64,000 nucleotides of DNA, from NCBI GenBank assembly GCA_029547185.1, contig JAKPPU010000170.1, forward strand, positions 1-64,000. Direction: 5' to 3'. The notes beneath the pieces are model-generated. The model made no database searches. It was not told the origin of the DNA and saw nothing but the letters and a program-made list of their open reading frames with translations. The position numbers and the translations under genes were made by a program. How positions within the stretch are numbered: the first letter of the stretch is position 1; the number at the start of each line of letters is the position of its first letter. Below, piece by piece: positions 35,109-45,340 of this stretch. This stretch comes from Deltaproteobacteria bacterium (lineage in GTDB: Bacteria > Desulfobacterota > Desulfomonilia > UBA1062).

Positions 35109-35978
35109 ATGGAACAGAGCAATACCGTGAACGAAGTGTTCGAAAACAAGCTGGACCGTCTTCCTGCTGCAGAATACAACTACGATCGCTACACCAGGGA
35201 GGATGCGATGATGGACATGAGGGGCACCCTCTCCGCGCGGGGGATCGGGCCCGGATGCCTCGCACCCGATTTCGAGCTCGAAGACACAGACGGAGGCAGG
35301 GTGAGGCTGAGCGACCTCAGGGGCAGGCCGGTAATCCTGCGCTTCGGAAACATCAGTTGACCTGCCACCATCGGCTCGGTCGAGCCGTTCAAGAAGCTCT
35401 TCCAGACGTGGGCAGACCAGGTGCACTTTCTCGACATCTTCGTGCGCCAGGCCCACCCGGGACCCATGGTCCCGCCATACACGTCCTACGAGCAGAAGAT
35501 GAGCGATGCAAAGATCTACAAGGAATCCGAAGAGATCCCCTGGCAGGTGCTGGTGGACGACCTCGAAGGCCGGGTGCACCAGGTATACGGAACCCTTCCG
35601 AACCCGACGTACGTGCTGACCGGTGAAGGCCGCATAGCGTTCTATGACGTGTGGTCGCACGCGCCCACGGTCTTCCGCACCCTCGAAGACATGATGGGAC
35701 CGGGCGGCGCCTGCGTGGTCCGGGGAGGCATCGACAGGATGCCTCACGCGATAGCCTCGATGGCGAACGGATGGCCCGCTCTGGAGCGCGGGCTTCCGCA
35801 GAGCTATTCCGATCTCGAGAAGGTCATGCCGGGGCTGGCAGCAGGCATCAAGTACGGCTACAGGCTCAAGCCCGTACTCGCTCCCCTTGCGCTGCGCGCA
35901 AAGCCGTTCCCCATAACATCAAAGGGGACGGCTCTCGGCGCAGGCGTCTACCTGGGTGCAAAGATCCTCTCACGCTGA
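35109..35978 (+). CDS. Selenocysteine-containing deiodinase-like thioredoxin-fold protein (in-frame UGA)
   Basis: 289 residues if the in-frame TGA at 35358-35360 is read as selenocysteine (residue 84). ATG 35109 follows GGAGG. The N-terminal half is a redoxin start (CLAPDFELEDTDGGRVRLSDLRGRPVILRFGNIS). Right after the TGA the same frame stays open for 205 codons (PATIGSVEPFKKLFQTW, then FLDIFVRQAHPGP). This matches the iodothyronine deiodinase family pattern, in which NFGS-x-T-U-PP is followed by an I-x-EAHP segment. A hairpin CGGCTC-GGTC-GAGCCG begins 11 bases past the TGA, the bacterial SECIS arrangement. The C-terminal 120 residues (DRMPHAIASMANGWPAL... GAGVYLGAKILSR) extend beyond the fold. 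A probable redox enzyme; substrate unknown. Automatic annotation would split it or call it a pseudogene. Confidence 0.85.
35358..35387 (+). promoter_or_regulatory. Bacterial SECIS element (UGA plus hairpin)
   Basis: TGA at 35358-35360; stem CGGCTC (35372-35377), loop GGTC (35378-35381), stem GAGCCG (35382-35387). The loop starts 17 bases after the TGA. In the well-studied E. coli fdhF element the same GGUC loop follows its UGA at about 18 bases. SelB recognises such a loop with a guanine pair. Confidence 0.8.
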
Positions 35979-36894: not shown

Positions 36895-38610
36895 CTATGA
36901 CTTCGACACGATCTTTTTCGTGATCGGGTGCTCCTCGGGCAGATGGTCGGGCAGGGGCTTCTCCATGAGCAGGGTATCGTTCTCCTCGATGGGCACAACG
37001 TTCAATACGTTGGCAAAGGAGATCCAATGGGGCAGGTTCAACTTCTTGCCTTCCGCGTGGTTCCACGTGCGGTACCAGAAGAGGTCGTTGACCGACTTGC
37101 GCATTTCCATGGCCTGGCGCTCCGCGATGATGGCATCCTGCTCGCGCTTGGCGCAGATCGAGATCACGGCCTGCATCTTGTCTCCCGGCTTGATGTCCGG
37201 GGCCAGGATGTCGGTGAAGCCCACGGCGCGGCCGCTTGCGAGCATGTCGTCGCTGTCGAGGATCTCGGCCGAGTGGATGGGGCCTGTCATGCAGAAGGCG
37301 CCGTACTTGAGGTCGTCTCCCCTGGGGATGTTCGTGGTCGCGTCGAGGTGGATGGAATTGAGCCCGCACTGAACGGCCTCGCCCACAGCGTGCTCCACCA
37401 CGTCGATGGGGTAGCCGAAGATCCCGGCGCTCTCCATGTCGATGGCGAGGAAGACGATCCGGTGGCCGTCCTCCCTGGGCTTGAGCACCTTCTTGCCCAT
37501 CTCGATGATGAGCTCTGCAAACTGCTTGTATGCCAGGTAGTCGCTCGATCTGAAGATGGGGTTGTTCTTGTTGAACGCGTACGCATCGAGCACTTCCTTG
37601 CAGGCCTTGTCCATGCCCCGTCTCACGCGGCTCCTCATGAGGGAGAGGATGGCCTTGCCCTTCATGGTGGTGCCGTCCACGATGTGAATCTTCACAGCCT
37701 CGCGCACGCCCAGCCTGCTCAGGGTGAAGTTGCAGCTGTCCACGAAGTTGTCGATGACCTTGTCGGGTACGGACAAGCTGAAGTCCGCGTTCCTGCGCTC
37801 GCTCTTGCGCTCGATGAGCTTGGCGCCGGCCATGGCCATCATGTCCGGGTCGAAGAACGACCGATCCTCGATCTTCTTGAAGCCGAGCTGTACGAGCGTC
37901 ACGATCCTGCCCTTGTCGTCCATGCCCGGGACCATGACCAGCTTTCTCAGCATCTCGTAGCCTTCGCGGTTCGGGCCGTTCACGAGGTCTTCGGAGAGCG
38001 ACTGCCTGATCACGTTCACGCCGATTCCACCGCCAAGGACGGCTCCGATCGCGCACATGAGGTTGTGCTCGAAGGTGCCCATGTCGAGGTTCTCGAGGCT
38101 GCGGATGCTCGGGGGGATGGGCTTGTGCCGCAGGTTGAGGATGTCCCTGAAGTCACCCTTGTAGCCCGTATTGATCATGACGACCGTGGCAAAGGCGTTT
38201 TCCGAAAACCTCTCGCCCGCCCGGATCTCCTTCATCTTCGCGAAGGCCGCCCGGCACTCCTTGTTGAAGGTCCAGTCGAAGTACATGCCCTGCCAGTGCT
38301 GCGAATAGGTCGCGCACGAGGCCTTCAGGCCGCACGCCAGAACCTGCCCGAGCTTGTACTTGTTCGGCACCTCCTTGATGTTGAAGGGAGCAAAGTCCTT
38401 TCCGCAATAGTGGCTCGACCGCCAGATGGAGCGGATAGCCTTGTTCGTCTTCTCGTTGATCGACTTGGGGTAGAGCAGGTACGGGACCTCACACGTAGCC
38501 GGATGCCTGTCCGGATACCACTGGGACCTGTGCACTGCCGGATTTCCGTCGACCGCGATCCTGCGGCCGTTTTCCTTTCCCAACACTCCGTTTTCTTCCT
38601 GCCTCTTCAT
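36895..38610 (-). CDS. Unrecognised 571-residue protein
   Basis: I do not recognise the family. 571 residues; ATG 38610 follows AAGGAGGAGG, so it is well translated. No signal peptide and no membrane segments, so it is cytoplasmic. The N-terminal 140 residues hold conserved-looking Cys and His (SHYCGKD, ACGLKASCATYSQHWQ). A Gly-rich stretch AIGAVLGGGIGVNVIRQSLSEDL is at about 190. The C-terminal half is barrel-like (IVFLAIDMESAGIFGYPIDVVEHAVGEAVQCGLNSIHLDATTNIPRGDDL; DILAPDIKPGDKMQAVIS). Codon use is like the neighbours. It lies 85 bases downstream of a TetR-type regulator gene on the same strand, so it is probably controlled by it. An enzyme of organic-acid or aromatic metabolism is a guess. 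Confidence 0.8.
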   Translation of the reverse strand: MKRQEENGVLGKENGRRIAVDGNPAVHRSQWYPDRHPATCEVPYLLYPKSINEKTNKAIRSIWRSSHYCGKDFAPFNIKEVPNKYKLGQVLACGLKASCATYSQHWQGMYFDWTFNKECRAAFAKMKEIRAGERFSENAFATVVMINTGYKGDFRDILNLRHKPIPPSIRSLENLDMGTFEHNLMCAIGAVLGGGIGVNVIRQSLSEDLVNGPNREGYEMLRKLVMVPGMDDKGRIVTLVQLGFKKIEDRSFFDPDMMAMAGAKLIERKSERRNADFSLSVPDKVIDNFVDSCNFTLSRLGVREAVKIHIVDGTTMKGKAILSLMRSRVRRGMDKACKEVLDAYAFNKNNPIFRSSDYLAYKQFAELIIEMGKKVLKPREDGHRIVFLAIDMESAGIFGYPIDVVEHAVGEAVQCGLNSIHLDATTNIPRGDDLKYGAFCMTGPIHSAEILDSDDMLASGRAVGFTDILAPDIKPGDKMQAVISICAKREQDAIIAERQAMEMRKSVNDLFWYRTWNHAEGKKLNLPHWISFANVLNVVPIEENDTLLMEKPLPDHLPEEHPITKKIVSKS

Positions 38611-38695
38611 AGATCCTCCTCCTTAAGGTGAATGCGAGCCTTGGTGTGCAAGACAGGTTTCATTGGCCTTACCGGCTTTTCCTTGAACTATTGCT

Positions 38696-39712
38696 TTAGC
38701 TTTCCCGATCCTTCGTCTGTGCGAAGAACCTTTTCCTTCCGGCATCCTCGCCGGCAATTCCGTTGAACAGCACTTCGAGGATCGCGGGCAGCTCCTGTTT
38801 AAGGGGATATCCCATGCCCGACTGCAGCCACTTGTACACGACCCCGTCGATGAATCCCATGATGCCGTAGAACGCCGTGTAGAAGTTCATAGTCTTCATC
38901 CGGCCTTCCGTGTTCAGCTCTACGATGCGCTCTTTGAGCATGGGGAGGCGGCTTATGACGGTGTTGTAGAACATGGCCTTGCCGCCCGGCTTGTACATGA
39001 TCTCCTCTTTCTGAATGAGGCGGTAGAGCAGGTGGTTCTTCTCGATGAACCCGATCCAGAACGAAATCGCCTCTTCGACCAGCTCGAGGATGTCGCCTGC
39101 CTTCATGAGCTCCTCTCTGAACACGGAGACGATCTCGTCGGTCTTCTCCGAGATGAGCTTTTCGAGGAGGACTTCCTTGCTCTTGAAGGTGCGATAGATC
39201 GTGCCCTTGCCCATGCCGCACAGGCTGGCGATCTCATCCACGGTCGTGCTGTGGAACCCCTTCTCCACAAAAAGCTTCAGGGCGGCATTGAAGATGTTCT
39301 CCCGGTTCAAGGGCGCGCTCTTCTTCACCTTGGCGAGAGGGAAGACCTGGGCCTGGGTGAGCACGAACCTCAGCATGTCCGGGGATACGGGCACCCTGCC
39401 TATGCTCATGAAGGACGCCTCCTCGGCTACGGCCCTGAAGAAGGCAAGGGCGTGCTCCTGCGATCCCATTTCCTTGAGGGCTGGGGCGAGCTTTTCGAGA
39501 AAGGATGCGAGCCACTCCGACGAATGTTTTTCGAATTCCTTTTTCGCCGTGAACGTGCGGGAGACGGCATTGAGGTTTTCCCTGACGTACGCCCGGAAGG
39601 CATCCTCATCCGGGGTTCCGTCGGCGGAAAAAAACCTTCCCCATTCGGCGGAGAGATCCGATCCTATGCCCTTGGGATCGATCTTCGATGGCTCGCTTAA
39701 GTCCTTGCTCAT
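38696..39712 (-). CDS. TetR-family regulator with an N-terminal extension of about 150 residues
   Basis: 338 residues from ATG 39712, which has GAGGAG upstream. The TetR HTH is internal instead of N-terminal: NRENIFNAALKLFVEKGFHSTTVDEIASLCGMGKGTIYRTFKSKEVLLEKLI at about 142-193. The C-terminal domain is that of a TetR regulator of normal size. The extra N-terminal 140 residues are helical (AFRAYVRENLNAVSRTFTAKKEFEKHSSEWLASFLEKLAPALKEMG) without a domain I can name, possibly a second sensor. A perfect palindrome at 39739-39752 just upstream suggests autoregulation and control of the 571-residue protein downstream. Confidence 0.85.
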   Translation of the reverse strand: MSKDLSEPSKIDPKGIGSDLSAEWGRFFSADGTPDEDAFRAYVRENLNAVSRTFTAKKEFEKHSSEWLASFLEKLAPALKEMGSQEHALAFFRAVAEEASFMSIGRVPVSPDMLRFVLTQAQVFPLAKVKKSAPLNRENIFNAALKLFVEKGFHSTTVDEIASLCGMGKGTIYRTFKSKEVLLEKLISEKTDEIVSVFREELMKAGDILELVEEAISFWIGFIEKNHLLYRLIQKEEIMYKPGGKAMFYNTVISRLPMLKERIVELNTEGRMKTMNFYTAFYGIMGFIDGVVYKWLQSGMGYPLKQELPAILEVLFNGIAGEDAGRKRFFAQTKDRES

Positions 39713-39738
39713 TCTCCTCAATGTTCCCCAATAACAAA

Positions 39739-39752
39739 ACGGACTAGTCCGT
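39739..39752. promoter_or_regulatory. Candidate operator of the extended TetR regulator
   Basis: ACGGACTAGTCCGT, a perfect 14-base palindrome 27 bases upstream of the regulator start codon. Size and position suit a TetR dimer acting on its own promoter. Confidence 0.6.
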
Positions 39753-40008
39753 CCATTATCCCTTTCCCAGTCGGCTGTCAATAGGATTGATTTCAAAGAC
39801 GGAAGTGGAAAAAGGAAGGTCTCTTTTTTATTGTAAATTTATCAGGAATTAATTTATGCTCACCAGATACTGCTTGGAGAGGGGCTTGTTCTTCCAGGGC
39901 TCCCGGCTCCTCTTTGCTGGCTTTGAATACATCCCGGCACCTGCATGCCCGGTTGGAAGGGGCACCCGCAAGCCCTGATTACGTTTCATGACTGAGGAGG
40001 TTCATGCC

Positions 40009-40103: not shown

Positions 40104-41051
40104 ATGATCGGATTCAAGATGAATGAGATCATGGTGGGCGCCCACCGGTTCGAGGGGGGCGATGCCGAGCTGCCCATGCTCTTTCACCTGACCTGGGGCC
40201 GCAAGAGCCTCCGCGAATATTGCAGCCCGTCCTCGCCTGACTTCCTCAAGGCAGAGGCAAAGGGCATCATCACGGTGGAAGGCCTCGTTCACAAGGCCGA
40301 GTGCGAGGGAAGCCTGCACTTGCTCTACTTCACCGGGAGCAAGGTCCGCTATGAGCTCGCATTTGAAGACGGGCAGGGAAGGGCATACGAATACGTGGGC
40401 GAGAAGGTGAACATCCGGCCCTGGAACCTCCATAAGAGCCACACCACCTGCTACGGCACGATCACCGAATGCGGGACCGGCAGGGTCGTCTCGAAGTCCG
40501 TCGTCCATTTCCCCTTAAGAGAGCTCCTCACCTTCATGAAGTCCTTCAGACTCGTGTTCTCCGACGAGTGGGGGAGGGAGAGAACACCGGGGCCCGGGCC
40601 GGAAGGTCCGGGAGGCGGGCCGTACAAGGTGCTCGGCAGCAAGGAGGCAGAGATCCTCGCCGCCATGGCCGGTGCCATCATCCCGCGGGGAGGAGAGAGC
40701 TTCAGGCTCGGCGCCGCAGACCTCGAAGAGAAATGGCTCCCGCGGACCGATTACGTGCTCTCGAAGATGCCGCTTCTCACCCGGTCGGGCTTCAGGCTGA
40801 ATCTCCATATCCTCAACCGGCTTTTGCCTTTTCTGTTCCTCAAGAGGCGGTCACAGCTGACCGGGCTCGACGAGTTCGAGCGCACCCGGCTCTTCAAAAT
40901 GATCGAAAGCTCAGCGTTTCCGGGTCCGCTCGCCGTGCTTCTGACGAAGATCCTCGTGTTCCCGGCGTTCTATGGTCTGCCCGAGGCAAAGGAGGCCATC
41001 GGCTATGAGGAGAGGTTTCCGAACCCGCGGTTCGAAGGCCTCAAAGACTGA
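40104..41051 (+). CDS. GMC-oxidoreductase partner protein with gluconate-2-dehydrogenase-subunit-3-like domain
   Basis: 315 residues from ATG 40104 (GGGAG upstream); a GTG at 40077 is an alternative. The N-terminal 165 residues form a beta-rich domain (MLFHLTWGRKSLREYC, LHLLYFTGSKVRYELAFEDGQGRAYEYVGEKVNI) of a type found attached to large GMC oxidoreductases of the cholesterol-oxidase group. A Gly/Pro linker (GPGPEGPGGGP) then leads to an all-helical domain (EAEILAAMAGAIIPRGGESF ... FERTRLFKMIESSAFPGPLAVLLTKILVFPAFYGLPEAKEAIGYEERF) resembling gluconate dehydrogenase small subunits. The GMC flavoprotein gene follows at 41209, so the two should form one complex. Confidence 0.7.
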   Translation: MIGFKMNEIMVGAHRFEGGDAELPMLFHLTWGRKSLREYCSPSSPDFLKAEAKGIITVEGLVHKAECEGSLHLLYFTGSKVRYELAFEDGQGRAYEYVGEKVNIRPWNLHKSHTTCYGTITECGTGRVVSKSVVHFPLRELLTFMKSFRLVFSDEWGRERTPGPGPEGPGGGPYKVLGSKEAEILAAMAGAIIPRGGESFRLGAADLEEKWLPRTDYVLSKMPLLTRSGFRLNLHILNRLLPFLFLKRRSQLTGLDEFERTRLFKMIESSAFPGPLAVLLTKILVFPAFYGLPEAKEAIGYEERFPNPRFEGLKD

Positions 41052-41208: not shown

Positions 41209-42726
41209 ATGCTGAAAGAATATCGTGAAATAAGCGGTCCTGTGCATGAAGATGCGGACGTGTGCGTCATCGGCACGGGTGCGGGCGGGGCGGTCGCCGC
41301 AAAGGAGCTTGCCGAGAAGGGCCTCACGGTGGTCGTCCTCGAAGAGGGAAGCCTCTTCACCGTAAAGAACTTCAACCAGGACCCGGGCGACATGCTCGCC
41401 ATGATGTACCGGGACAGCGGAACCACGATGGCGCTGGGCATCCCGCCTGCCTTCATCACCATGGGAAAATGCATCGGCGGCACCACGACCGTGAACTCCG
41501 CGACCTGCTTCAGGACCCCTCCCGAGGTCTTCGAGGAATGGTCGCAGAATTGGGGCTGCGAAGGGCTCACCTGCGAGGAGCTGGTTCCCCACTTCGAGAA
41601 GGTCGAAAGGGAGATCAGCGTGGTCGAGCTTTCCGAAGACGTGCTCGGCAACGTGTACAAGATCGTCAGGAGGGGTGCGGAAAGGCTCGGGCTCAAGGCG
41701 AGGCCGCTCAAGCACAACGTGAAGGGCTGCGAGGGCGCCGGGGTCTGCCAGTGGGGCTGCATCAGGGGCGCGAAGCAGTCCATGGACGTCACCTATGTAC
41801 CCAAGGCCGAGAGGGCGGGTGCGCATATCTACGCCAACTGCCGGGCAGTGAAGATCGGCGTGGAGAACGGGCGGGTGACGGGCGTGCAGGGCGTGTTCGT
41901 CGATCCGTGCACGGGTGCAAAGGGATACGGCCTCTCCGTGAAGGCGCGGGTCGTCTGCCTTGCCATGGGGGCGCTCATCACCCCGGCATTCCTCCTCAAG
42001 AACGGGCTCGCCGACTCCTCCGGCATGGTGGGCAGAGGACTCACGATCCATCCCTGCGGCAGGGTCGTGGCAGAGATGGACGAGGTCGTGGACGGCCACC
42101 ACGGCGTATCCCAGGGCGGGCTCATCGATGCCTACAAGGACGAAGGCATCATGCTCGAAGGCGTCTTCGTTCCTCCCGCGATCATGGCCATGGCGCTGCC
42201 GGGCGTGGGAGAGGAACACAAGGCCCTTGCCAAACGCTACCGGAACCTCGCTGCCTTCGGCGTCATGGTGAGCGACACCACGAGGGGCCGGGTGCTCCCC
42301 GGTTTGTTCGGCTACCCGTTCACGGCCTTCTACTCGCTCAAGCGTGAGGATGCGGAAAAGCTCCACAAGGGCATCGGCTATCTGGCGGACATCTTCTTTG
42401 CCGCCGGCGCGAAGCGGGTATTCACGGGGTGCTACCCCATGCCCGTGCTCGGCTCGAAGGCCGAGCTCAAGAGGTTCAAGGGAATGAGGTTCAAGCCGCG
42501 GCACTTCGAGGTGATGGCCTTCCATCCCCTGGGCACCTGCCGGATGGGGAACGACCCGCGGCAGTCCGTGCTCGACCTGAACCTCGAGACGCACGACATC
42601 AAGGGCCTGTTCATCCCGGACGGAAGCCCCTTCCCGACATCCCTCGGTGTCAATCCGCAGGAGACCATCATGGCCTTTGCCGACCGAACGGCCGGCTATA
42701 TCGCGGAGCATATCGGGAGATACTAG
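41209..42726 (+). CDS. GMC-family FAD-dependent oxidoreductase
   Basis: 505 residues. FAD-binding GTGAGGAVAAKELAEKG at about residues 22-38; second GMC signature GKCIGGTTTVNSATCFRTP at about 86; C-terminal GMC motif FHPLGTCRMGNDPRQSVLDLNLETHDIKGLFIPDGSPFPTSLGVNPQETIMA with the catalytic His region. A four-cysteine insert CEGAGVCQWGCIRGAKQS near 178 is characteristic of the subgroup with a Fe-S-like or structural cysteine loop. Family members oxidise alcohols and sterols and pass electrons on; the helical partner encoded at 40104 supports a membrane-linked dehydrogenase. The substrate is unknown. Confidence 0.88.
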   Translation: MLKEYREISGPVHEDADVCVIGTGAGGAVAAKELAEKGLTVVVLEEGSLFTVKNFNQDPGDMLAMMYRDSGTTMALGIPPAFITMGKCIGGTTTVNSATCFRTPPEVFEEWSQNWGCEGLTCEELVPHFEKVEREISVVELSEDVLGNVYKIVRRGAERLGLKARPLKHNVKGCEGAGVCQWGCIRGAKQSMDVTYVPKAERAGAHIYANCRAVKIGVENGRVTGVQGVFVDPCTGAKGYGLSVKARVVCLAMGALITPAFLLKNGLADSSGMVGRGLTIHPCGRVVAEMDEVVDGHHGVSQGGLIDAYKDEGIMLEGVFVPPAIMAMALPGVGEEHKALAKRYRNLAAFGVMVSDTTRGRVLPGLFGYPFTAFYSLKREDAEKLHKGIGYLADIFFAAGAKRVFTGCYPMPVLGSKAELKRFKGMRFKPRHFEVMAFHPLGTCRMGNDPRQSVLDLNLETHDIKGLFIPDGSPFPTSLGVNPQETIMAFADRTAGYIAEHIGRY

Positions 42727-43216
42727 GATATTTCCGGCGTGCGCCGGTCAGCCCGGGTTGTCGTTTCATGGTTTCGGGAGCATCTCCCAGCAGCTTGCCG
42801 CCTGGTTATCCAGCTTAATATTGCCGGGCCTCCCGGCTGAGCCTCAACTGAAAATATGAATCCCTGCCGGAGTCCCGCCTTTTAAGAGGTAACGAAAATT
42901 GATTGTTTTCGAGACTGAAGGCGCAGCCCGAAGTTTGCCCCGCCCCGTTTTCCCCCTTGTACGATATCGTCTGCTCGTTGAGATACCAGGCAGGAGGGGT
43001 ATTATTAAGCTATAATAGAGACAAAGGCATTGAACATATCGTAACTTATGAATAATCCTATCTCGATATGCAGTGGCAACCATTGCCGGGGGTACGATAG
43101 ATGACCGATACCGGCTGATATCTTCAAACCAGGTAAACCATTTCCTGCATCCAGAGTGATTATCGAGGACCCTGCATACCCGAGAGGAAATGAAAAAGCG
43201 AATAAAGGAGGAGGCC
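42727..43216. other. Intergenic region before the multicopper oxidase
   Basis: About 490 bases without a convincing gene. A TATAAT at 43011-43016 has no matching -35. A small GC hairpin GCCGGGCCTCCCGGC is near 42824. A long minus-strand frame (42844-43287) is not protein-like and overlaps the oxidase start. Confidence 0.4.
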
Positions 43217-45340
43217 ATGAAATTGAAGTATGTATGCATCCTCGTGCTTCTCTCTACGGTGTGTGCCTGCTCGAACAGCAGCCACAATTCAAGTGAAAGT
43301 TCTGAACCTCAATCCCAGGTCGCGGCCGAGAACCTGGATCCTGCTTCGATCCCGAAATTTGTGAGCTCGCTGGTCATGGTCCCTGTAATGCCGAACAAAG
43401 GCACCGTTGATGTCCAGGGCGAGACCGCGGATTACTATGAACTCGCAGTACGGCAGTTCGAACAGCAGATTCTCCCCGGCAGCTATCCCATGACCACGGT
43501 CTGGGGTTTCGGCCCTTCCGACGACCCGAGAACCGTTGCCCAGGGAGGAAGATACTTCTATCCGTCCCTCACGATTGAGGCAAGGCAGGATGTCCCCGTG
43601 AGGGTCAAATGGATCAACGCCCTCGTTGATGAGCAAGGAAATTTCCTTCCACACCTGTTCCCCATCGATCAGACGATACATTGGGCTAATCCCGTAGGAC
43701 CCCGCGACGATCACGGCACGAGCCAGGAGCCGTATGAAGGGCCTGTTCCCGTAGTCATTCATCTCCATGGAGGCCACGACAATGACGAATCCGACGGCTT
43801 CCCCGAGGCATGGTTTCTCCCGGATGCCGCGAATATCCCTTCGGATATTCAGTTCACAACAGGTACATTCTACGACTATTTCGTCAGCAAGTTCGGGCTC
43901 GACTGGTCTCCCGGGACGGCAACCTACACCTATCCGAACGACCAGAGGGCAACGACCCTCTGGTATCACGACCACACGCTGGGCATCACACGGGTGAACA
44001 TCTATGCAGGACTGGCGGGATTCTATCTCATCCGAGGCGGCTCTGACGATGTCGTGCTGGATACGAGGTCGGAAAACCAGTCCTCCCCCGCGGTCCTTCC
44101 CGGGCCTGCGCCAAGTACGGAGATAAACCTTTCCGGCTCCTTCCGCGAGATTCCCATCATGATCCAGGACCGCTCGTTCAATACGGACGGCTCGCTGTTC
44201 TATCCCGACAACCGAGCCTTTTTCGAAGGGCTCGATCCATCACAGCTCCAGATCCCCTTCACCCCGGATCCGGGTTGCGACGGAATGCCCAGCGACGTGG
44301 CCCCGATCATCCAGCCCGAGTTCTTCGGAGACTGTATCGTTGTCAACGGGCAGACATGGCCGTTTCTCAATGTTGAGCAGCGCCGCTACCGCTTCCGGAT
44401 CCTCAACGCATGCAACTCGCGCACCCTCATCCTTGACTTCAATGGCATTCCCGGACTGGAAGTCTGGCAGATCGGGGCAGACGGCGGTTTCCTGGCGGCT
44501 CCGGTCGACATGAATGCTGCCAATGACGGCAGGCTTTTAATGGGGCTTGCAGAGAGAGCCGACATCATTGCCGACTTCACGAATGTGCCGGCAGGGAACT
44601 ATGTTCTGACCAATCTTGGCCCCGACGAAGCCTTTGACGGAGGTGAGCCCGGAGTCGATTTCGATCCGGCGGACCCGCAGACTACCGGCCAGGTCCTGCA
44701 GTTCAGGGTCGGCCCGAGAGTCGGCGAAGACACAACCACTCCACCTCAGTTCATGAAGCTTCCTGCCATAACCCCTCTTGTCCCGACCGTTACCCGCAGG
44801 ATCTCCCTGAACGAGAACGCCTCCATGAATGTCTTTGTCAGGCAGGAAGCGGACGGCAGCCTGATATACGACTGCAACAGCAGTACACCCATCGACCCGG
44901 TAAAGACTCTGCTGGGCACGTATGATCTGAATACGGGCATGCCGACGGAAGCCCTATGGTCGGGAGCCATCACGGAAACGCCTGCAGTAGGGGCTGTCGA
45001 AACCTGGGAGATCTACAACTTCACCATGGATGCCCATCCCATCCATATCCATCTGGTCCAGTTCCAGGTCGTCAATCGCCAGGCCCTCGCACCCCTCGAT
45101 GAAAACGGCATGGCAATACCTCCTGCCTTCCCGACAGGAACACCTCGCGAACCCGAGGTCTGGGAGAGCGGATTCAAGGATACGGTGATCGTCTATCCCG
45201 GCGAGCTGGCCCGCGTCAGGGCGGTGTTCGACGATGAAGGCTTCTCCGTGTGGCACTGCCACATCCTGGAGCATGAAGACAACGAGATGATGCGGCCGTA
45301 TCATGTGGGGCCCGTCCCTGCAGATGCGCCGCCGCTCTAG
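43217..45340 (+). CDS. Multicopper oxidase, probable lipoprotein (CotA/bilirubin-oxidase-like)
   Basis: 707 residues; ATG 43217 follows AAAGGAGGAGG. Signal peptide MKLKYVCILVLLSTVCACSN with a probable lipobox ending in Cys, then a Ser/Asn linker. Copper motifs are complete: HLHGGHDND (about 178), WYHDHTLGITRVN (about 247), HPIHIHLVQFQV (about 610), and HCHILEHEDNEMMRPY (about 677), with Met as type-1 axial ligand. It oxidises metals or phenols and reduces O2 to water outside the cell membrane. An O2-using enzyme in an apparent anaerobe suggests periodic oxygen exposure or metal detoxification. Confidence 0.92.
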   Translation: MKLKYVCILVLLSTVCACSNSSHNSSESSEPQSQVAAENLDPASIPKFVSSLVMVPVMPNKGTVDVQGETADYYELAVRQFEQQILPGSYPMTTVWGFGPSDDPRTVAQGGRYFYPSLTIEARQDVPVRVKWINALVDEQGNFLPHLFPIDQTIHWANPVGPRDDHGTSQEPYEGPVPVVIHLHGGHDNDESDGFPEAWFLPDAANIPSDIQFTTGTFYDYFVSKFGLDWSPGTATYTYPNDQRATTLWYHDHTLGITRVNIYAGLAGFYLIRGGSDDVVLDTRSENQSSPAVLPGPAPSTEINLSGSFREIPIMIQDRSFNTDGSLFYPDNRAFFEGLDPSQLQIPFTPDPGCDGMPSDVAPIIQPEFFGDCIVVNGQTWPFLNVEQRRYRFRILNACNSRTLILDFNGIPGLEVWQIGADGGFLAAPVDMNAANDGRLLMGLAERADIIADFTNVPAGNYVLTNLGPDEAFDGGEPGVDFDPADPQTTGQVLQFRVGPRVGEDTTTPPQFMKLPAITPLVPTVTRRISLNENASMNVFVRQEADGSLIYDCNSSTPIDPVKTLLGTYDLNTGMPTEALWSGAITETPAVGAVETWEIYNFTMDAHPIHIHLVQFQVVNRQALAPLDENGMAIPPAFPTGTPREPEVWESGFKDTVIVYPGELARVRAVFDDEGFSVWHCHILEHEDNEMMRPYHVGPVPADAPPL

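Follow-up and report, generated by a model that had tools for sequence, protein, structure and literature searches.

Organization of the locus

The DNA analyzed here (hereafter "the window") is a stretch of 64,000 nucleotides belonging to a 4.19-Mb assembly, the nearest named relatives of which bear labels such as Syntrophaceae bacterium UBA6087. The locus comprises two genes on the minus strand. The upstream gene (38696..39712) encodes a predicted TetR-family repressor of 338 residues, as judged from the Pfam model TetR_N, a structure prediction, and homologues. The downstream gene (36895..38610), termed P571, was defined by its open reading frame and its homologues; it starts with the ATG at 38610, its stop codon ends at 36895, and its product is an orphan of 571 residues. 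Between the TetR stop codon and the P571 start lie 85 bases (38611..38695, minus strand), as given in the preliminary description of this DNA. This spacer holds a strong ribosome-binding site (AAGGAGGAGG) ahead of the P571 ATG, and a sequence scan of its minus strand listed no terminator- or promoter-like sites.

The longest open reading frame of the regulator opens with a TTG at 39796. This start was rejected, as the promoter and palindrome detailed below would then fall inside the gene. The ATG at 39712 yields the 338-residue protein and agrees with the start positions of homologues.

A perfect 14-base palindrome (ACGGACTAGTCCGT; 39739..39752, no strand assigned) lies upstream of this ATG, at a distance of 26 bases (27 had been stated earlier). 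It is regarded as a candidate operator on the strength of its recurrence, its rarity, and its position in the promoter. It abuts a weak -10 box, TAATGG (39753..39758, minus strand), which is spaced 17 bases from a -35 box, TTGACA (39776..39781, minus strand). The first base of the latter is 36 bases from the operator center.

Distribution and conservation

P571 was found in 10 of the 24 genomes of the window's family (its own and 9 of 23 others), for a total of 13 copies. The 12 other family copies have open frames and are 53–78% identical to the P571 of the window, and the protein is therefore taken, by sequence comparison, to be under constraint at the protein level. When 395 genomes drawn from the phylum were searched, the carriers were members of the window's family only; in the spirochaete phylum, P571 occurred in 3 of 247 genomes, and no relatives were found in plasmid and viral collections. 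Judged by these searches, P571 is rare outside the window's family.

The preliminary description had called the protein unrecognised and had raised a match to a known enzyme family as the contrary outcome. No such sequence-family match appeared: single-sequence searches of Pfam, NCBIfam, and the PDB returned nothing, nor did Pfam searches with each of 14 P571 members, PF00881 being among the families without a match. PDB profile searches with the whole P571 profile and with each half were likewise empty, neither half retrieving a nitroreductase. P571 represents a family of very strongly conserved proteins that is absent from these catalogs, and its repressor and operator provide a handle on function.

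A check of co-occurrence across genomes had also been suggested, and the pair does recur. Of the 16 P571 copies from the family and the spirochaetes combined, 11 have the extended TetR gene immediately ahead of them. Within the window's family this holds for 9 of 13 copies, and among the spirochaetes for two of three, the third having both genes on separate contigs. The four P571 copies that lack the regulator form one group (70–72% identity to the P571 of the window), and three genomes with such a copy also carry a second one that is accompanied by TetR. On this comparative evidence, TetR–P571 is a real conserved gene pair that spans two phyla, Desulfobacterota and Spirochaetota. A limited literature search located no publications on it. 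A TetR repressor beside the enzyme that it controls is a familiar arrangement; what is new here is the orphan effector.

Promoter and candidate operator

Allowing up to two mismatches, the palindrome has one match in the 64-kb window (0.12 expected), and the 4.19-Mb genome contains a single exact copy of its 12-base core. Four genomes carry the same sequence (ACGGACTAGTCCGT) ahead of their TetR genes, and others have symmetric variants of it there (GACTGACCGGTCAGTC and GACCGACTAGTCGGTC); both spirochaetes have imperfect versions. From lineage to lineage the letters of the palindrome differ, with full or almost full retention of the symmetry. Its position is also fixed. In the 11 promoters compared, 34–37 bases separate the first base of TTGACA from the center of symmetry, and a -10-like hexamer, the first two bases of which are TA in most cases, is present at a spacing of 17 from TTGACA. 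Because this distance is held constant, the palindrome appears to sit on the expected transcription start. A symmetric site is suited to the dimeric TetR repressors, and the comparison of the 11 promoters places a candidate palindromic operator near the regulator's own promoter, as is typical of the TetR family. The palindrome therefore looks like a TetR operator.

It is very probable, given this layout, that TetR represses its own promoter and, with it, P571. The single occurrence of the exact core in the genome suggests that the regulation is local.

The extended regulator

The predicted regulator consists of a helical extension (residues ca. 1–135), a helix-turn-helix (HTH) domain (140–185), and a FadR-like ligand domain that continues to ca. 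residue 322, as delineated from the structural model, Foldseek and VIA matches, and homologues. Pfam TetR_N (PF00440) was matched at residues 140–185 with E = 4e-17 and 62 bits (cut-off, 24). Thus, ca. 135–139 residues precede the TetR_N domain, close to the figure of about 140 given earlier.

The extension (39308..39712, minus strand) was delineated from the structural model and from its recurrence in aligned regulators. In the model, the first ca. 19 residues are disordered, and residues 20–121 form five helices (20–25, 36–53, 57–82, 85–101, and 111–121), with pLDDT values of 73–90 over residues 21–120. No Pfam family scored above its cut-off for this region, consistent with the preliminary description. 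The extension was present in all 23 regulators aligned, including those that accompany other effectors. Within the protein, conservation is lowest here (mean identity 35%, vs. 56% in the HTH and C-terminal domains); the extensions of families f1 and f2 share a weak profile similarity (E = 9e-4 over 37 columns). Since it is found with several unrelated partners, the alignments assign it to the regulator lineage rather than to the P571 pair. The effect of an added N-terminal module on a TetR switch could be studied in this lineage.

A VIA structural search of the regulator, which covered residues 132–324, identified FadR as the best structural match (5gp9; Z = 18.0, 182 residues, rmsd 2.9), in accord with the all-helical C-terminal ligand and dimerization domain of the TetR family. 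FadR models were also the best NCBIfam matches of the window regulator, and all nine regulators tested matched them (best E = 9e-23). The score against the FadR equivalog model NF053878 was 66 bits, well below its curated cut-off of 200. Among known regulators, the C-terminal domain most resembles FadR and FasR, both of which bind acyl-CoAs. The TetR-type FadR of Bacillus subtilis and B. halodurans and the FasR of Mycobacterium tuberculosis share the HTH and C-terminal ligand domains with the window protein; unlike them, the latter has ca. 135 additional N-terminal residues and is predicted to act locally, on its own gene and an orphan. Because the fold is FadR-like and lipid-type genes lie beside related regulators, our best guess is that the ligand is a lipid or an acyl-CoA.

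Other partners of the regulator lineage

In the sister family f2, the extended TetR gene overlaps by 4 bases the gene for a giant synthase with nitronate-monooxygenase (NMO), ketoacyl-synthase (KS), acyltransferase (AT), and carrier (ACP) domains, the open frame of which extends to ca. 3,500–3,640 residues where the contig allows. One spirochaete has a split form. Across the seven f2 loci (L064–L070) and that of spirochaete G420 (L071), the extended TetR overlaps or directly precedes the giant synthase, and the upstream bases contain GGTCAGTC/GACTGACC repeats that resemble the operators of the P571 pairs. The f2 pairs accordingly have the same regulator architecture and similar half-sites (GGTCAGTC); they differ in that the partner is a multidomain synthase instead of P571 and in that their regulators group apart, in a clade with a long branch. 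In two f1 genomes, an acyl-CoA dehydrogenase and a GMC-type oxidoreductase reside beside the regulator instead. P571 has no constant lipid-gene neighbor. For family f1, the idea of P571 as a substitute for the giant synthase, or as an accessory to it, was abandoned, as the synthase was absent from the f1 genomes searched.

A protein of 407–418 residues that resembles class II aminoacyl-tRNA synthetases (PF00152, E = 1e-7 to 9e-7; L127:8567-9820 and L062:4435-5655) adjoins an extended TetR in a spirochaete and is located near one in a family member.

Fold of P571

The AlphaFold model of P571 is poor (mean pLDDT 49, pTM 0.43), and the fold matches below are to be read with that in mind. In a Foldseek search of the PDB with this low-confidence model, the top 23 hits all belonged to the nitroreductase-fold superfamily (best E = 6e-3, probability 0.99); they included NADH oxidase, NfrA1, iodotyrosine deiodinase, BluB, and FbiB. 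All 50 matches listed by VIA for the same low-confidence model also had the nitroreductase fold, nearly all of them over residues ca. 74–254, with Z from 8.0 to 6.9, a range in which values below 8 can reflect a common arrangement. The match at rank 50 still scored 6.9, compared to the 4–5 typical of models without a clear match. A fold search of the viral BFVD with the model gave nothing above a probability of 0.12.

Two halves are proposed (residues ca. 45–256 and 257–500), along with conserved N- and C-terminal tails. Helices and strands follow one another in a comparable order in both, again in a poor model and with residues 478–486 read as a strand against it. The segments GRIVTLVQLGFK and DKMQAVISICAK constitute parallel ends of the halves, a weak correspondence (E = 0.08). 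R-x-S-x-R is the flavin phosphate motif of nitroreductases. By eye, an invariant R268-K-S270-E-R272 was noted at the start of the C-terminal half, and its R268/S270/R272 spacing equals that of the nitroreductase motif (R34/S36/R38 in A4); for so short a motif, chance agreement is possible. In the N-terminal half the R-S-R positions are replaced, and D-x-G and LGG spacing was seen there by eye. With the motif present in the C-terminal half and replaced in the other, a pseudo-dimer made of one chain would have a single working flavin site.

Profile methods were less favorable. Comparisons of P571 with nitroreductases in hhalign were not significant (E = 0.05–0.6), nor was the profile comparison of one half with the other (E = 0.08–0.13). 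A shuffle test of P571 against nitroreductases was ambiguous, and at the level of sequence and profile P571 does not qualify for PF00881.

The layout proposed for P571 is like that of mycobacterial Acg and of TyzC, which belong to the flavin-dependent oxidase (FDO) subgroup of the nitroreductase superfamily; R-x-S-x-R is found in one half of P571. In Acg and TyzC, one chain mimics the nitroreductase homodimer and has one flavin site (PMC10404671). Unlike these proteins, P571 is much longer (571 residues vs. 372 in TyzC) and has no detectable sequence similarity to nitroreductases, and its FMN binding is a prediction. Tandem nitroreductases of the same class (510–546 residues) also contain two nitroreductase-like halves in one chain, as proposed for P571, and are close to it in length; both of their halves are seen by profile, whereas P571 is unrelated to them by profile comparison (E = 0.5). 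One tandem protein of this kind is encoded in each of seven f2 genomes (L111–L117), and single-domain nitroreductases are matched better by its second half than by its first.

Judged from the low-confidence model, P571 may be a distant, double-length relative of the flavin-using nitroreductases, and the odds are roughly even that it works like one without being filed as one. Should the fold lead hold, the nitroreductase superfamily extends further in sequence than profile models see.

Proposed mechanism

From the gene pair, its conservation, and its promoter–operator layout as seen in sequence comparison, we infer repression, a ligand class, a flavin enzyme, and a role for the extension. TetR and P571 would make up a self-contained two-gene transcription unit. 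TetR would bind the palindrome at the start of its own promoter and repress both its gene and the one that follows, P571; a dimer bound on the transcription start would be placed to block the polymerase. Release of TetR would come from a ligand bound in its FadR-like C-terminal pocket, for which an acyl-CoA or a related lipid thioester is the most likely candidate. P571 would then be made and would act on the ligand compound or on the redox stress that it causes. The extension would be a helical module common to the regulator lineage, probably serving as a second interaction surface. P571 itself would combine two nitroreductase-like halves, both very divergent, in one chain that forms a pseudo-dimer with one FMN site. 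The probability of this scheme in its entirety (an autorepressed two-gene unit, release by acyl-CoA or lipid, and a pseudo-dimeric flavin protein) is put at about 0.5. Against it stand the four P571 copies without an adjoining TetR, the poor P571 model with its non-significant nitroreductase comparisons, and the inconstant lipid neighborhood of P571, including the missing synthase in the f1 genomes searched. A heterologous host would allow the repressor and operator to be tested, and the releasing compound is likely to be close to the P571 substrate.

Were the palindrome an RNA hairpin in the leader (a terminator or attenuator) and not an operator, its flagging by the terminator scan (39757-39738) and the T-rich stretch that follows it in the window and in genome G003 would be accounted for. 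However, the T run is absent in genomes G001, G004, G005, and G013, the fixed distance from TTGACA puts the palindrome at the transcription start and hence only partly in the RNA, and its perfect or near-perfect symmetry fits a dimeric TetR; this reading is very improbable. Slightly less so, yet still improbable, is loose pairing, with TetR controlling its own gene only and P571 transcribed from a promoter of its own. Three of the four regulator-less copies, which are from one clade, do have a promoter-like TTGACA-17-TATATG, and the spacers of genomes G004 and G005 are ca. 190 bases long and contain an inverted repeat, but the 85-base spacer of the window has no promoter-like site and the pairing recurs in two phyla.

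The extension had been cast earlier as a sensor. It could be a true one (a second site for a ligand or partner, giving two inputs), or P571 could dock there and feed back. Its ordered helices and its retention in every regulator of the set, whatever the effector, are in favor; its low conservation, its association with unrelated partners (hence no specificity for P571), and a regulator fold search that covered the TetR domain alone count against this reading, which we deem unlikely. A more serious competitor, though still the less probable one, is that P571, whether an enzyme or a binding protein, has an unrelated fold, the structural matches reflecting a weak model; the autorepressed pair would be real nonetheless. 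The lack of significant sequence or profile matches and the mean pLDDT of 49 are consistent with this, whereas the restriction of the top PDB hits to one superfamily and the parallel helix/strand order of the halves speak against it. Of the sensor-regulator and effector pair suggested to be undescribed, the conserved, uncatalogued pair with its operator-like palindrome is retained, while the sensor role is doubtful and the novelty of P571 in kind is tempered by the model's resemblance to a known fold. A bolder formulation is conceivable, at somewhat less than an even chance: P571 would found a new family (a deeply diverged, single-chain pseudo-dimeric flavoenzyme or an unrelated new fold) induced via a repressor that senses lipids and has a helical domain as its second input, in a lineage wired to at least three effectors. 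In Desulfobacterota and Spirochaetota, P571, the giant fatty-acid/polyketide-type synthase, and acyl-CoA dehydrogenase were observed beside this regulator lineage.

Other genes in the window

Two plus-strand genes point away from the TetR gene. One (40104-41051) encodes a 315-residue protein with no Pfam match and precedes the other (41209-42726), which encodes a GMC oxidoreductase similar to cholesterol oxidase and choline dehydrogenase; a multicopper oxidase (43190-45340) follows. The GMC oxidoreductase and its neighbor were considered as fixed partners of the pair and rejected, there being no relatives within the flanks examined of other copies.

On the other side of the pair, a redoxin-type gene (35109-35978, plus strand) has an in-frame TGA at codon 84, in the context GNIS-U-P. 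Read through, it codes for a 289-residue protein resembling iodothyronine deiodinase and AhpC (PF00837, E = 1e-9, above the cut-off). The hairpin after the TGA is weakly stable (z = -1.2). By its sequence, this gene likely specifies a selenoprotein, which ordinary gene calling breaks into two pieces.
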